64,000 bases of DNA from Clostridia bacterium (lineage in GTDB: Bacteria; Bacillota; Clostridia; Christensenellales; Aristaeellaceae): positions 34,318 to 98,317 of the forward strand of contig JAFVXE010000017.1 in the NCBI GenBank assembly GCA_017501255.1, in the 5' to 3' direction. Each line of letters begins with the position of its first letter. Positions within the stretch are counted from its first letter, which is position 1. Shown piece by piece: positions 56,132-61,679 of this stretch. The notes under the pieces were generated by a model. It saw only the letters and a program-made list of their open reading frames with translations, searched no databases and had not been told where the DNA came from. A program made the position numbers and the translations under genes.

Positions 56132-56914
56132 ATGAAATTCCATGAATCCGGTCTCTGGGATGCGCCTGTGCTGTTGCTACTACCCGGCACCTGCTGCCAT
56201 TGGAAGAAAAACTTCGGGCCGGTGCTGCCTATGCTGAACGAACACTTTCATGTGGTCTGCGCCTCCTACGATGGCTTTGACGAAACGGAAAGCACCCTCT
56301 TCACCACTGTCACCGATCAGGTGGAGAAGATCGAAGCCTTTGTACAAAAGCAGTTCGGGGGCAGCATCCATGCGGTTTATGGTTGCTCTCTGGGCGGCTC
56401 GCTGGCGGGTATGCTGGTGGAGCGGGGCAATATCCGTATCGCCCACGCCATTCTGGGCAGCAGCGATCTGGATCAGGAGGAAGGGCTGCCCGCCCGGTTC
56501 AAGGCATGGCTCATCGGCAGGGTGCTGCACGGCATTATGCAGAAGGGGCGGCTGCCCCGGTGGATGCAGAAACGGCTGGAGCAGAAGCCGCCCGAGCAGC
56601 AGGCCTACATGGAGAAAATGCTTGCCATGATGGGTCTGCTGGATGGCTCCATGGCCTTTGTGAAGCGTGCGAGCATCCAAAGCCAGTTCCATTCCGATCT
56701 CATCACCCCGCTGGGACTGGGCATCCATGCCAAGGGCACCACGGTGCATTGCTTCTATGCCAAAAAGATGGGGGAGGAGTACCTTCGCCGCTACCGGCAG
56801 CATTTTGCAAAGCCCCATATCGTGGAGTACGATCTGCTGCATGAGGAATTGCTGCTTTGCCGGCCGGAACAATGGGTGCAGGAAGTGTGCCGTGCAACGG
56901 AAACCAAAAGTTGA
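56132..56914 (+). CDS. Alpha/beta hydrolase
   Basis: A 260-residue alpha/beta-fold hydrolase: L-L-L-L-P-G-T-C-C-H-W near the start (oxyanion strand), Y-G-C-S-L-G-G-S as nucleophile elbow (Ser near 91), and a C-terminal H-E-E-L-L region for the histidine. The substrate is unknown. It starts 12 bases after the methyltransferase stop with AAGGAG, so it was originally in that gene's operon. The iron-type promoter at 56924 begins just after it. Confidence 0.8.
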   Translation: MKFHESGLWDAPVLLLLPGTCCHWKKNFGPVLPMLNEHFHVVCASYDGFDETESTLFTTVTDQVEKIEAFVQKQFGGSIHAVYGCSLGGSLAGMLVERGNIRIAHAILGSSDLDQEEGLPARFKAWLIGRVLHGIMQKGRLPRWMQKRLEQKPPEQQAYMEKMLAMMGLLDGSMAFVKRASIQSQFHSDLITPLGLGIHAKGTTVHCFYAKKMGEEYLRRYRQHFAKPHIVEYDLLHEELLLCRPEQWVQEVCRATETKS

Positions 56915-57747: not shown

Positions 57748-58095
57748 ATGGAAAACATCATTATTATCGGGATCCTTGTTCTGGTGGTGGCGGTCGCCAT
57801 CCATAACACTGTAAAGCACTTTCGGGGCAAGGGCGGCTGCTGCGGAGGCGGCAGCAGCTACAAGCCCAGAAAAAAGAAGCTCCCTTCCATCCTGTACCAA
57901 AAGACCTTCAAGGTGGAAGGGATGCATTGCGACCACTGCAAGAACCGCGTGGAAGAAGCTGTTAACGATATACCCGGTGTTGCCGGGATCGTGGATCTGA
58001 AAAAGGGTCAGGTGACGGTCTCCTATGCGCAGGATGTGTCGGATGAGGTGATCCGGGCAAAGATCGAGAGGGCGGGGTATACCGTGGCGGGGTGA
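57748..58095 (+). CDS. FeoB-associated Cys-rich membrane segment fused to a heavy-metal-associated domain
   Basis: A 115-residue protein. Residues 3-20 are a membrane helix followed by a basic stretch and G-G-C-C-G-G-G, the form of the small FeoB-associated Cys-rich protein. Residues from about 48 form an HMA domain with the copper-type motif G-M-H-C-D-H-C and ending A-G-Y-T-V. The two parts are normally separate proteins. It follows DUF3793 by 25 bases with AGGAGG upstream. A membrane-tethered metal chaperone is inferred. No feoA or feoB lies in the window. Confidence 0.8.
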   Translation: MENIIIIGILVLVVAVAIHNTVKHFRGKGGCCGGGSSYKPRKKKLPSILYQKTFKVEGMHCDHCKNRVEEAVNDIPGVAGIVDLKKGQVTVSYAQDVSDEVIRAKIERAGYTVAG

Positions 58096-58242: not shown

Positions 58243-58917
58243 TCAGCCATTGATGGCTGCGCCTGTTTCCTTGCTGTCAGCCTTTGTCAAAAGGAAATAC
58301 AACCCGAAGAACATCAGGCTGCTGCCCACGTTCAAAGCGCCCATGCCCGCAAGCAGGATGCCGGCAACAAATGTAAGGGGCAGCGTGTTGACTACACAAG
58401 CCCACTTGGGCAGGCAGGTCTTCTGCTTGAACACATTGATGAACAGCGAGATGCACACCATGAACACACCCACGTTGCACATGGCGGAGGTGGCGCAGGT
58501 CTCAAAGAAATAGCTGAGCATGATGCTGTGCGCCTGCTCCGTTGCCCCGGCTTTGACGAAATGCCACAGCATGCTGGTGCAGGTAAAGTGCATCACCGCA
58601 CCGGCAACGCAGGTAAGCGCCGTACCCACCTGCACCACCCGGGCGGTCTTTTCCGAAACGGGCTTCAAAAAGTTGGCGATCTGGAAGTATGCAGGCATGA
58701 TGACCATCATGGCGATAACGCCGAACAAACCGCTCAGCGTAAACTGCAGGGTGGAAGCCCCCTCCAGCATGGCAACGGTGGTCTGATAATCAAACAGCCC
58801 CATCACATTCAGCGGGCCGTTGGGCATAAAGTACAGCAGCAAATCGCCGCCCAGCCAGCACAGCAGGTGTCCGAAAGCGCCGAACAGAAACAGCTTGGGG
58901 TTACCATTCTTAGTCAT
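58243..58917 (-). CDS. Six-helix membrane protein, last gene of the riboswitch operon
   Basis: A 224-residue hydrophobic protein with about six spans. It opens F-L-F-G-A-F-G-H-L-L-C-W-L-G-G-D-L-L-L-Y and contains H-F-T-C-T-S-M-L-W-H-F and several membrane-embedded H, C, M and D residues. No well-defined family is recognised. ATG 58917 overlaps the preceding gene by eight bases and has AAGGAGG upstream. Given the Mn2+ riboswitch at the operon start, a metal-transport role is worth testing but is only inferred. Confidence 0.7.
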   Translation of the reverse strand: MTKNGNPKLFLFGAFGHLLCWLGGDLLLYFMPNGPLNVMGLFDYQTTVAMLEGASTLQFTLSGLFGVIAMMVIMPAYFQIANFLKPVSEKTARVVQVGTALTCVAGAVMHFTCTSMLWHFVKAGATEQAHSIMLSYFFETCATSAMCNVGVFMVCISLFINVFKQKTCLPKWACVVNTLPLTFVAGILLAGMGALNVGSSLMFFGLYFLLTKADSKETGAAING

Positions 58918-59566
58918 GGTGGGGTTCCTCCTTGGTCGCATTGCTCCTGCTGCCCACATACCAGTAATCGCAGCTGTCCGCACCCGCAGAAATGGTATGG
59001 TTGCGCAGCAGTTTGGCGTTCATCAGCGCAGCCATGGCGTGGTCAAGCTCGCACAGATGGGGCATAAAGTCCATGTAGCCGTGCTTCTTGGCAAAGTCAA
59101 CCAGCGGGCAGCCCACCAGATGGAAGGAGCAGCCCTCGGTGTAGCCCTCCGGGTTGATGACCACGCCCCAGGTGTTGTTCCATTTGCCGTTTTGCTTGTT
59201 TCCGTTGGCTTTCTTTGCATAGGGGATGTAGATGCGGTACATCAGCTTCGCCATCCATGGTTTGTTATAATCAAAGAGCTTCTTCAGGAAGCCGAGCTTC
59301 TCCGTCATCCATCCGGTTACCTCGAGGAACATCTCTCTGGTAACGCGCCTGCCGGTGGCTTCGTAGAAGGCGAAGAAGGTCATGGCCATATCCAGATTGC
59401 TTGCCAGCAGGTTCTCCCTGCCGCCGATGGAGGGCGTTTCCTTGCGGAAGCCGTCGTAGATGAGATCGGCTTTGCTCAGTAGTGCCTTTTCCTCGCCGGG
59501 GAAGTATTTCTGTGCGCAGCGTTTCAGCAGTTTGCGGTAGCTGCGGGGGATCGTGCAGGTTTTCAT
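58910..59566 (-). CDS. L-2-amino-thiazoline-4-carboxylate hydrolase family protein
   Basis: A 218-residue protein with the ATC-hydrolase family pattern: helical N-terminal half (A-S-N-L-D-M-A-M-T-F-F-A-F-Y-E-A-T-G), G-W-M-T-E-K-L, and the conserved G-C-S-F-H-L-V-G-C-P-L-V-D-F-A and M-P-H-L-C-E-L-D-H segments near the C-terminus. Family members open a thiazoline ring to cysteine; many homologues are uncharacterised. ATG 59566 has AAGGAG at 7 bases and overlaps the SRPBCC stop by four bases. Confidence 0.8.
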   Translation of the reverse strand: MKTCTIPRSYRKLLKRCAQKYFPGEEKALLSKADLIYDGFRKETPSIGGRENLLASNLDMAMTFFAFYEATGRRVTREMFLEVTGWMTEKLGFLKKLFDYNKPWMAKLMYRIYIPYAKKANGNKQNGKWNNTWGVVINPEGYTEGCSFHLVGCPLVDFAKKHGYMDFMPHLCELDHAMAALMNAKLLRNHTISAGADSCDYWYVGSRSNATKEEPHHD

Positions 59567-60051
59567 GAGCATTCTCCTTCCTTTCCTTTGGCTTGCTTGG
59601 ATGCAGCCTCCAGCAGCCGCACCCACTCGCGCTGCCGATGGGCGTAAAACAGCTTTGCCCACAGGCACACGATGGGCGTTTTCCAGCCTGCATGGATCTC
59701 TACCTCATCCGTATACCGGGTATGACCGCTGTCGATCCTCTCCAGCTGGATGGTGTGGTTCCACACCGGCACATAGGGGTTGGATTCCTCTGTGTACACG
59801 ATGCTGTCAGCCCTGTCAAAGCGTTGCACCCGGATGGTATGGATGCCCAGCGGCAGCAGCCCGAACAGGCGGAACCGGAACCGGTACACCGCACTCGGCT
59901 GCCAGTTCAGATCTCCGCTGCCATCCATCGGCTTGAAGGTGGCATAGGGGCTGGCGATGTGCTGCAGCGTGCTGAGCTTTGTGAGCTTTGTCCATATGGT
60001 ATCCGCATCCGCGGGGAAGATAGAGGTTCGTACCACCGACTGATGTTTCAT
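59563..60051 (-). CDS. SRPBCC (START-like) protein
   Basis: A 162-residue helix-grip protein with F-P-A-D-A-D-T-I-W-T-K-L-T-K-L, Y-T-E-E-S-N-P-Y-V-P-V-W-N-H-T-I-Q-L and a long C-terminal helix R-Q-R-E-W-V-R-L-L-E-A-A. It binds a hydrophobic ligand; the function is unknown. It is the first gene of the operon behind the riboswitch, with AAGGAGC before the ATG. Confidence 0.8.
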   Translation of the reverse strand: MKHQSVVRTSIFPADADTIWTKLTKLSTLQHIASPYATFKPMDGSGDLNWQPSAVYRFRFRLFGLLPLGIHTIRVQRFDRADSIVYTEESNPYVPVWNHTIQLERIDSGHTRYTDEVEIHAGWKTPIVCLWAKLFYAHRQREWVRLLEAASKQAKGKEGECS

Positions 60052-60082
60052 GGTTTGGCTCCTTCATCGATCCGCATCTAAG

Positions 60083-60123
60083 CAACAAAAATCCCGGACA
60101 TGGCGCTGAATGCCATGCCCGGG
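60083..60123 (-). terminator. Riboswitch expression-platform terminator
   Basis: On the minus strand CCCGGGCATGGC (60123-60112) pairs with GCCATGTCCGGG (60104-60093) with one mismatch, then ATTTTTGTT. It lies between the aptamer and the SRPBCC start. Confidence 0.85.
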
Positions 60124-60165
60124 TGATGATACGAACACATTTTGACCCACGCATAGCCATTACAG

Positions 60166-60262
60166 CTGTACGATGAGTCTCGCAATTTGAAGCAAGCCAG
60201 GCCGGAGCCAGTATGTTGACTTGCTACGCCATTGGCGCTCGCTACTCCCTCACGGAATGTAC
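60166..60262 (-). promoter_or_regulatory. yybP-ykoY (Mn2+) riboswitch aptamer
   Basis: On the minus strand the RNA reads GTGAGGGAGTAGC, then later AAGTCAACATACTGGC and TGCGAGACTCATCG. The GGGAGUAG...AGUCAACAUACUG...GCGAGAC order and the closing TGAG/CTCA helix match the yybP-ykoY motif, which senses Mn2+ and usually turns on exporters. A promoter lies directly upstream and a terminator directly downstream. The genes it controls here are not a known exporter family. Confidence 0.88.
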
Positions 60263-60268
60263 GTTGTC

Positions 60269-60298
60269 AGTTTACCAAATGGGGGAAGGGGTTGTCAA
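60269..60298 (-). promoter_or_regulatory. Promoter of the riboswitch operon
   Basis: On the minus strand TTGACA (60298-60293), an 18-base spacer and TAAACT (60274-60269). Confidence 0.8.
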
Positions 60299-60465: not shown

Positions 60466-60777
60466 CTAAATCAAATTCAGATAATGCTGCCGTGCATCCA
60501 CGACTGCATACACGATCACTTGCTGGGCTTCCTCATTTACCTTGTAGAAAACCAGATGCCTTTCAACGATCAGCACCCGATAACCCTGTTTTCGCAGGAT
60601 GCTGTACCGGGGATAGCTTCCCATGTGGGGCGAAGTAGCCAGCTTTGAAATTTCTCTTTCCAATATATCCAGATAGCCAAGCGCCACATCGATGCTGCCG
60701 GAGCTTTCCGCAATATACTGAATAATGGCGTATAACTGGTCGCTGGCTTTGTCGGTTCGCAAAATGGCGTAGCTCAT
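60466..60777 (-). CDS. RelE/ParE-family toxin
   Basis: A 103-residue protein with the ParE/RelE shape: N-terminal helices (A-S-D-Q-L-Y-A-I-I-Q-Y-I), L-E-R-E-I-S-K-L-A-T-S-P, then beta strands Y-R-V-L-I-V-E-R-H-L-V-F-Y-K-V and V-I-V-Y-A-V-V-D-A-R-Q-H-Y. RelE members cleave ribosome-bound mRNA, ParE members poison gyrase; ParE-like is suggested by R-x-D-x-x-x-H-like spacing. The start overlaps the antitoxin stop by four bases. Confidence 0.9.
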   Translation of the reverse strand: MSYAILRTDKASDQLYAIIQYIAESSGSIDVALGYLDILEREISKLATSPHMGSYPRYSILRKQGYRVLIVERHLVFYKVNEEAQQVIVYAVVDARQHYLNLI

Positions 60778-61049
60778 TTTGCTTTCCCTGCCAACAAACG
60801 GCTGCGGATATCGCTGAAGGTATCCTCAATAGGAGCCACACGATCTGCACGAACATCCTCCTCGGCATCGGCAAGGGTGCGGAGCAGTTCCAGTTCCGCC
60901 TGCATCTGCTGGAAGTCAGTCATGCCCATCAGTACTGTATCGCCGCGACCGTTGACGGTAATGTAAACAGGCTGGCGGTTTTCCCGGCAAAGCTTTGAAA
61001 TCTCGCTGTAGTGGTTGCGCAGATCGGCAGAAGGACGAATCAGGTCCAT
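60774..61049 (-). CDS. Phd/YefM-type antitoxin
   Basis: A 91-residue antitoxin: M-D-L-I-R-P-S-A-D-L-R-N-H-Y-S-E-I opening and V-Y-I-T-V-N-G-R-G-D-T-V-L-M-G are the usual Phd/YefM DNA-binding half, with an acidic tail that would neutralise the toxin. ATG 61049 has AAAGGAGGTG upstream. Confidence 0.9.
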   Translation of the reverse strand: MDLIRPSADLRNHYSEISKLCRENRQPVYITVNGRGDTVLMGMTDFQQMQAELELLRTLADAEEDVRADRVAPIEDTFSDIRSRLLAGKAK

Positions 61050-61144
61050 GGGAACACCTCCTTTGATAGTCAAATTGTATCTTTGTTTTGCTATGATGTC
61101 AACGGGAAACATTGGCAGTCTATTCATCGCTTGTAAAGTATGTC

Positions 61145-61519
61145 TCATTCGTATACCAACTCCCTGATCACAAATTCGTCCACATGGGCGTGGATGTTGT
61201 AGACGGTGTGGAACCAGCGCATGCAGTCTTTGGCTTTCAGTTCTTCCGAGGTATCGAAGTATTGTTTCATGCGTTCAAAGAGAACATCATAGCGCTCTTT
61301 GCAGCTGTCTTCCACCTGATTCAGGTGGGCGTTCAGCTTGCCGTGGACGATCAGATCATTCAACAGCTCTACCTTGTGTTCTCGGAGGAATTGCAACCGC
61401 AGCTGACCATATTTGCTGTATCGGGGTTCTTCTTCCTGGGGAAGCTTCAGAATGGGGTAGAATAGGCCGTCTTCATGTTCTTCGTATTGGATGCCCCGTT
61501 CATCAAAAAAGGTTTTCAT
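61145..61519 (-). CDS. tnpV: TnpV transposon protein
   Basis: A 124-residue protein with the TnpV pattern: Y-S-K-Y-G-Q-L-R-L-Q-F-L-R-E-H, L-I-V-H-G-K-L-N-A-H-L-N-Q-V-E, and a C-terminal F-V-I-R-E-L-V-Y-E. TnpV is an accessory protein of mobilisable transposons in gut bacteria. Here it stands alone with no recombinase, so it is probably a domesticated or left-over copy. ATG 61519 has AAAGGAG upstream. Confidence 0.85.
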   Translation of the reverse strand: MKTFFDERGIQYEEHEDGLFYPILKLPQEEEPRYSKYGQLRLQFLREHKVELLNDLIVHGKLNAHLNQVEDSCKERYDVLFERMKQYFDTSEELKAKDCMRWFHTVYNIHAHVDEFVIRELVYE

Positions 61520-61679
61520 TGGTAAATCTCCTTTCACATATGCGGTAAATTTGACAGATTTTAGGTCGCCAAAGTTACGAAAACCTTCCAAAAATCACCT
61601 CCTGGGGACTATCTTCCCACCATTGAAACAAACCCAGGTGACACAACAAAAAATGTGTGTTATGATGGTTTCGGAGCCA

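Follow-up and report, generated by a model that had tools for sequence, protein, structure and literature searches.

The closest described relatives of the element considered here are the yybP-ykoY riboswitches (RF00080) and the Mn2+ exporter operons with which they are associated, such as mntP of E. coli and yoaB of L. lactis. The crystal structure of the X. oryzae aptamer is described in PMC6754395 as a four-way junction whose L3 reads ACA48U49ACU52, with A48 reading Mn2+ through its N7, and ON logic is reported for the class in that paper and in PMC11087558. In addition, a review of former orphan riboswitches points to yybP-linked genes that are hard to reconcile with Mn2+ sensing and treats them as an unsolved matter (PMC7266159). 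Here we describe such genes in a 64,000-nucleotide stretch of a Clostridia bacterium genome (GCA_017501255.1, contig JAFVXE010000017.1; this whole stretch is hereafter the window). An initial annotation, made from the letters of the stretch, had proposed a promoter, an aptamer with the yybP-ykoY core and a terminator with a T-run ahead of three overlapping genes; a promoter-like pair and each of the other elements could be located on the minus strand (Table 1), the genes encoding an SRPBCC protein, a member of the ATC_hydrolase family and a DUF6796 membrane protein.

Taken together, the analyses below make it likely that a compact yybP-ykoY-type aptamer, predicted to be a Mn2+ ON switch, governs this operon, which would serve the response to Mn2+ excess in an accessory capacity other than export. 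If so, the Mn2+ response would extend beyond metal export, and the riboswitch, used as a label, would tie three protein families whose role here is unproven to a defined physiological signal. The operon resembles the described exporter operons in its kind of sensor, its predicted ON logic and a regulon that it shares with the mntP of its own genome, and differs from them in that none of its three genes matches a Pfam metal transporter family. Among ill-fitting yybP-linked genes it is a case with a conserved lineage, in which mntP twice shares an operon with the module.

Identity of the leader RNA

Structural evidence was drawn from an alignment of 26 aptamers selected by their L1/L3 pattern, in which the helices, but not the loops, constitute independent evidence. 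Across this alignment a five-helix structure retains 95.3% of its pairs, and in 15 of the 27 both partners have changed, which none of 500 shuffles matched (relatedness is not taken into account in this control), with covariation in P1.1, P1.2, P2 and P3; when the 3' partners were slid, pairing fell to 28-46%. The joint between P3 and P1.2 measures 5 nucleotides in all 26 sequences, leaving no room for P4 and suggesting a three-way junction, that is, a compact variant, and the four-way junction with P4 of the X. oryzae structure was not present in any of the 26. P4 is optional in the yybP-ykoY class. The conserved L1/L3 core, including the equivalent of the Mn2+-sensing adenosine, is present in the window at 60249-60242, 60220-60210 and 60183-60177, and of the 144 aptamers retrieved by a covariance model that we built for the clade (R1), 129 contain CAACA. 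Compared with RF00080, the leader shares the L1 GGGAGUAG and GAGAC strands, the sensing adenosine of L3, the four covarying helices, a terminator-based expression platform and, among relatives, downstream mntP, P-type ATPase and GDT1 genes; it differs in its three-way junction without P4, its score under the Rfam cut-off, its separate anti-antiterminator hairpin and an operon without a known exporter.

A number of observations weigh against our interpretation, two of which concern the RNA itself. The Rfam covariance-model check suggested in the initial annotation gave no significant match: the best RF00080 match to the window leader reached 16.3 bits against a cut-off of 45 (E 0.018, 481 bases given), no Rfam family matched anywhere in the window at its gathering score, and an RF00080 search of the window's own genome returned no match. 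Further, the invariance of L1 and L3 in the 26-row alignment is partly a product of its construction. Exporter-linked kin nevertheless fail the same check. When 15 loci of the same kind were run through Rfam, RF00080 matched ten at 17.4-33.6 bits, always below the cut-off, and gave nothing at E <= 1 for the other five, among them the window's own. Similarly, across 40 family genomes RF00080 had matches in three at E <= 0.001, none of which reached the cut-off, while R1, built partly from aptamers of some of those genomes, lists 24; on 14 named control genomes RF00080 matched five, two of these above the cut-off. Since the exporter-linked aptamers of the clade also miss the cut-off, the shortfall is best read as a weakness of the RF00080 model for this clade.

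A simple motif search for L1 followed by L3 (GGAGTAG-N5..35-TCAACATAC) matched 8 of the 17 genomes searched in the genus and 22 of the 150 in the family, while the reversed motif gave 0 and 2 hits, respectively. Downstream of these matches were mostly mntP genes, and also P-type ATPase, Na/Ca exchanger and GDT1 protein genes, as identified by Pfam on representatives (for the P-type ATPase, that of the window's own genome). One of the 8 genus matches, in G158, lacked GAGAC and was dropped as a chance match (L058). The window aptamer scores 87.3 bits with R1, being itself one of the 26 sequences from which that model was built; R1 derives from pattern-selected sequences and predates the recognition of P1.2, and its matches lean toward the L1/L3 core. 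At E <= 0.001 it had matches in 143 of the 308 genomes searched within the family and in 181 of 396 within the order, a sample that includes family members. A population of Mn2+-type riboswitches accordingly exists below the Rfam cut-off in this family, and the yybP-ykoY reading is upheld despite the failed Rfam check, the leader RNA being almost certainly of this type.

The core also bears on the ligand. An aptamer variant responding to another metal or ligand would explain the presence of non-exporter genes, and PMC7266159 raises the suspicion of changed-ligand variants among yybP RNAs that accompany unusual genes; moreover, the module-linked aptamers of three relatives (G115, G156 and G143) have L3 changes after the sensing A. 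Against such a change, the L1, L3 and four P1.1 pairs of the window aptamer are identical to those of the mntP-linked aptamer in its own genome, and it retains the sensing A; that L3 change is also seen in 10 further fetched aptamers, all preceding exporter families, and the module shares operons with mntP. We therefore give a changed ligand very little credence, and predict with high confidence that Mn2+ is the ligand of the window aptamer.

Genes behind the aptamer across the clade

To place the operon in its regulon, 144 aptamer loci were classified, 142 of which have downstream reading frames. These loci are not a random sample, consisting mainly of the best-scoring among the model matches listed, with module-linked loci included on purpose (L176 and L181 came from an SRPBCC search described below); labels came from phmmer, counting for each locus the first gene that received one and began no more than 700 bases on, with Pfam checks on representatives only. 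The first labelled gene encoded MntP in 76 cases, a P-type ATPase in 40, a Na/Ca exchanger in 10 and a CitMHS/ArsB-like protein in 5, the remainder comprising OAD_beta, a Na/Pi cotransporter and an upstream tandem copy (1 each) and the present module (8, to which the window copy is additional, L176 being counted under MntP). A transporter or pump family thus came first in 132 of the 142, in keeping with the earlier statement that this riboswitch normally controls exporters. Within the window's own genome three aptamers were found, of which those on contig 57 (L061) and contig 10 (L119) precede mntP (PF02659) and a P-type ATPase, respectively, and the window copy precedes no known exporter.

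Several further arrangements were observed in the course of this survey. Six family aptamers (L153, L334, L335, L336, L342 and L344) possess a variant core, with L3 reading CGUCAUCACGG or CGUCAGCACGG rather than CAACAUAC, and L1 reading GGGAGUAAC in 5 of the 6. Five precede a protein of about 425 residues resembling CitMHS/ArsB (Pfam on L342 only) and the sixth, L153, a Na/Pi cotransporter-PhoU protein; these aptamers are candidates for a yybP variant with another ligand. The aptamer of L319, also with an unusual L3, precedes the beta subunit of a Na+-transporting oxaloacetate decarboxylase. Two aptamers each were found at L290 (301-393 and 1095-1188), in the order riboswitch-mntP-riboswitch-P-type ATPase, and at L288 (301-395 and 2850-2945), where the first long frame, 979 bases past the upstream copy, encodes MatE. 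The mntP gene of G261 (L126) is split over two frames, reflecting either decay or an assembly error.

Conservation and evolution of the operon

Based on gene order in relatives, we identified SRPBCC-ATC-DUF6796 operons behind the aptamer in two genomes of the window's own genus code (G153 and G156), in G115 (g30) and in G240 and G241 (g24), as well as an ATC-DUF6796-SRPBCC arrangement in G143 (g12). The three families therefore occur behind the aptamer in four genus codes and two gene orders. A reduced form, hydrolase-ATC-hydrolase, follows the aptamer in G059 (g15), and in G152 the aptamer lies at a contig end. The ATC and DUF6796 proteins of G115, G156, G240 and G241 fall into the same Pfam families as those of the window (one of each scanned) but into different subfamilies, and the ATC gene of G156 (L112) is split over two frames, again through decay or assembly error. 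G115 also has another ATC-DUF6796 pair, some 4.4 kb beyond its riboswitch operon (L110, 6742-8072), whose DUF6796 is 86% identical to that of the window.

An SRPBCC search of genome_contigs, which holds one genome per species for 84,980 species, returned 149 loci, of which the best 80 were kept. Seven of these carried an aptamer, always upstream and on the same strand; five lie in genomes already named above and two were new. Of the latter, L176 (Ruminococcus sp. RGIG2991) reads riboswitch-mntP-ATC-DUF1232-hydrolase-SRPBCC-hydrolase, and L181 (Ruminiclostridium sp. RGIG8540) reads riboswitch-SRPBCC-mntP. These operons shared with mntP suggest that the module is part of the Mn2+ response. In an SRPBCC tree of 81 rows (L194, whose SRPBCC is broken over two frames, was excluded), all nine riboswitch-linked rows fell on one side of a single branch (support 97/77), a grouping as low in none of 500 label shuffles, with L175, whose contig starts inside the operon, as sister to this clade (99/92). 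Their grouping as one clade suggests that a single lineage kept the switch through changes in gene order and partners.

The points that count against the interpretation at the level of the operon are as follows. The operons of G240, G241, G115 and G156 are almost identical across three genus codes, representing about one event, and reflect either recent transfer or a binning error. The tree contains long branches (L111/G143 and L181), and the clade receives a Shimodaira-Hasegawa-like approximate likelihood ratio test (SH-aLRT) value of just 77. Finally, no aptamer was found in the sequence stretch around 73 of the 80 SRPBCC loci, nor in 37 of 38 further operon-protein loci with flanks of about 1.5 kb (some of these genomes being shared with the SRPBCC search). 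With most homologues lacking a riboswitch, the protein families as such do not appear to be dedicated to Mn2+. Among the 73 riboswitch-less SRPBCC loci, 36 have an ATC, DUF6796 or alpha/beta hydrolase gene within 3 kb on the same strand, which suggests that these families are often neighbours and that just one lineage was placed under the switch. The window operon is thus like these switch-free neighbourhoods in bringing the same families close together, and differs from them in the Mn2+ aptamer, found only with one SRPBCC lineage.

The initial annotation had envisaged recent gene replacement should the operon not be conserved behind the riboswitch in relatives. Under this explanation, foreign genes would have arrived behind a former mntP riboswitch and their control would be incidental, as might be suspected from the TnpV gene and Phd/ParE pair closely upstream and from the near-identical operons across three genus codes. 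Instead, the families of the operon are found again behind the riboswitch in several genus codes and two orders, twice alongside mntP; the SRPBCC proteins linked to the switch group in a single, deeply branching clade, and both the window and most module-linked leaders have an intact expression platform. Recent replacement is accordingly disfavoured and held to be quite improbable, and the operon is, as far as comparative sequence data indicate, very probably a stable member of the Mn2+ regulon.

Expression platform and predicted switching

The leader from 60265 to 60070 folds with -81.8 kcal/mol (z -5.04; 0 of 200 shuffles as good). At the free-energy minimum of the full leader (-72.8 kcal/mol), the 3' strand of P1.1 pairs with CGUGGGUC and the terminator is formed, whereas in the computed fold of a transcript ending before the 3' arm of the terminator, the antiterminator strand pairs with the terminator 5' arm. 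This antiterminator duplex has an energy of -19.0 compared with a shuffle mean of -10.6 (0 of 200 as good). With P1.1 enforced in the full leader, the terminator (-61.9 kcal/mol) is still favoured at equilibrium over the enforced antiterminator (-57.9 kcal/mol), which implies that the switch would have to operate co-transcriptionally, the usual mode for this type of switch.

From these folds a mechanism can be proposed. Without Mn2+, the 3' strand of P1.1 would pair downstream (GACUCAUCG/CGUGGGUC), locking away the antiterminator strand; the terminator would then form and transcription would stop. Conversely, Mn2+ bound between L1 and L3, at the adenosine at 60214, would hold P1.1 and leave strand 60166-60145 free to pair with the terminator 5' arm, such that the operon would be read. 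A terminator is present in all 10 module-linked leaders examined (several near-identical), and in 8 of the 10 no more than 3 of 200 shuffles match the antiterminator complementarity. We infer the ON direction, and consider a transcriptional ON switch highly probable. Further points on the opposing side are that a review (PMC11477304) calls the class OFF switches, contrary to PMC6754395 and PMC11087558, that the antiterminator complementarity of L118 (14 of 200 shuffles) and L181 (28 of 200) is not strong, and that 78 of the 144 leaders tested have a recognised terminator, with 31 of the 62 having enough sequence passing at <= 10 of 200. Either not all leaders share the terminator/antiterminator platform, or the test does not capture every case.

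The operon proteins and their possible role

For gene 1 the Pfam copy used returned no family. Its predicted structure (predicted local distance difference test, pLDDT, 89.6) has a helix-grip fold with 3tfz as best Foldseek match (E 6.8e-8) and 351 PDB chains at E <= 0.001, many of them START/Bet v1, confirming the SRPBCC label given earlier; in addition, PF28469 is carried by nearly all of the at least 120 gene 1 homologues listed. The gene 2 product matches PF14196 (ATC_hydrolase) with 69.4 bits (cut-off 28.1), where "L-2-amino-thiazoline-4-carboxylate hydrolysis" is to be read as a family name only, and the gene 3 product matches PF20599 (DUF6796) with 67.2 bits (cut-off 26.9). The DUF6796 protein is predicted to be helical throughout (pLDDT 89.7), and all 15 of the diverse members aligned retain D/E at position 25 and H110. 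None of the operon proteins matched the known Mn2+ exporter families MntP, P-type ATPase, Na/Ca exchanger or GDT1 at a Pfam E <= 0.01.

The initial annotation had offered two alternatives, namely that the six-helix protein is an undescribed Mn-handling protein or that the riboswitch has been coupled to another function. Under the first, DUF6796 would be a so far undescribed membrane protein that exports or otherwise handles Mn2+, and the operon an ordinary exporter target with two passengers. Consistent with this, DUF6796 and MntP never occur together in the fetched riboswitch-led operons, with DUF6796 but not MntP in seven (the window, G153, G156, G115, G240, G241 and G143) and MntP but not DUF6796 in two (L176 and L181), a pattern that hints at replacement, and the all-helical protein keeps the two residues named above. 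This exclusion, however, rests on few independent events, the DUF6796 operons lying within one SRPBCC lineage. Further, the genome already has a riboswitch-led mntP and P-type ATPase, 16 of 17 family DUF6796 loci lack an aptamer in the sequence stretch searched, no transporter fold was recognised on comparison of DUF6796 with solved structures, and G059 keeps the ATC part without either DUF6796 or MntP. An exporter role for DUF6796 is therefore unlikely, and the second alternative, coupling to another function within the Mn2+ response, is favoured.

A different view of the operon places the enzyme at its centre: an ATC_hydrolase-family enzyme that uses Mn2+ might be made only when its cofactor is available, detoxification not being the point. 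ATC_hydrolase is the part most often retained (in the window-type operons, G143, G059 and L176), and such gating would fit a set of operons that are predicted to respond to Mn2+ and, for the most part, contain no exporter. Set against this, L181 lacks an ATC gene in the fetched stretch, and the operons shared with mntP point to Mn2+ excess and not sufficiency. We know of no Mn2+ dependence for PF14196, and a literature search found none among the entries listed. Cofactor gating is accordingly considered rather improbable.

Returning to an operon that answers Mn2+ excess, we place the chance that its role is accessory rather than that of an exporter at about even. The most likely role of the proteins under high Mn2+ would be small-molecule or lipid handling beside MntP. 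A bolder version, in which they form a complete Mn2+-induced small-molecule pathway, with the ATC_hydrolase-family enzyme making or breaking a compound, the SRPBCC protein carrying it and DUF6796 moving the compound or a Mn2+ complex across the membrane, is improbable. If correct, this pathway might represent a route to Mn2+ tolerance unlike the known exporters that could replace MntP in the same operon.

Layout of the locus and neighbouring genes

The features of the locus are collected in Table 1. Genes 1 and 2 overlap by 4 bases and genes 2 and 3 by 8 bases, and by eye an AAGGAG-like sequence stands ahead of the ATG of each of the three.

Table 1. Coordinates of the leader, the operon and adjoining genes in the window.
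Feature	Position	Strand	Basis or remark
-35-like box TTGACA	60298-60293	minus	sequence, consensus read by eye
-10-like box TAAACT	60274-60269	minus	18 nucleotides downstream of -35 box; read from sequence
yybP-ykoY-type aptamer, compact, 86 nucleotides	60256-60171	minus	model R1, covariation, RF00080 local match
P1.1	60253-60249/60177-60173	minus	G60253-G60249 with C60177-U60173
L1	60248-60243 + 60181-60178	minus	two strands
P1.2	60242-60239/60185-60182	minus	recognised after model R1 was made
P2	60238-60226	minus	aptamer helix
P3 with L3	60225-60217/60199-60191	minus	aptamer helix and loop
L3 adenosine (CAAC-A-UAC)	60214	minus	equivalent of A48 (X. oryzae) and A41 (L. lactis), matched by eye to the published L3 reading
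Anti-antiterminator hairpin GACUCAUCG...CGUGGGUC	60179-60144	minus	minimum-free-energy fold; exclusive with P1.1
Antiterminator strand GCUGUAAUGGCUAUGCGUGGGU	60166-60145	minus	complementary to terminator 5' arm, 60124-60105
Intrinsic terminator hairpin, 12 bp	60123-60093	minus	followed by TTTTT, 60091-60087
Gene 1, SRPBCC (START/Bet v1-fold), 162 aa	60051-59563	minus	predicted structure and Foldseek
Gene 2, ATC_hydrolase (PF14196)	59566-58910	minus	ATG at 59566; Pfam match
Gene 3, DUF6796 (PF20599) multi-helix membrane protein, 224 aa	58917-58243	minus	Pfam and predicted structure
ParE-like toxin and Phd/YefM antitoxin genes	60466-61148	minus	immediately upstream of riboswitch
TnpV gene	61145-61591		beyond toxin/antitoxin pair
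Small protein with heavy-metal-associated domain	57748-58095	plus	adjoins DUF3793 gene
Alpha/beta hydrolase	56132-56914	plus	opposite strand to operon, no aptamer there

With the toxin/antitoxin pair and the TnpV gene beyond it, the neighbourhood upstream of the riboswitch looks mobile. On the other side of the operon, the small protein with a heavy-metal-associated domain also has an N-terminus resembling a FeoB-associated protein, slightly under the Pfam cut-off. Kin of the alpha/beta hydrolase were found in five SRPBCC loci (L178, L218, L221, L223 and L237; 157-180 bits), adjoining the SRPBCC gene in L218 and L221.

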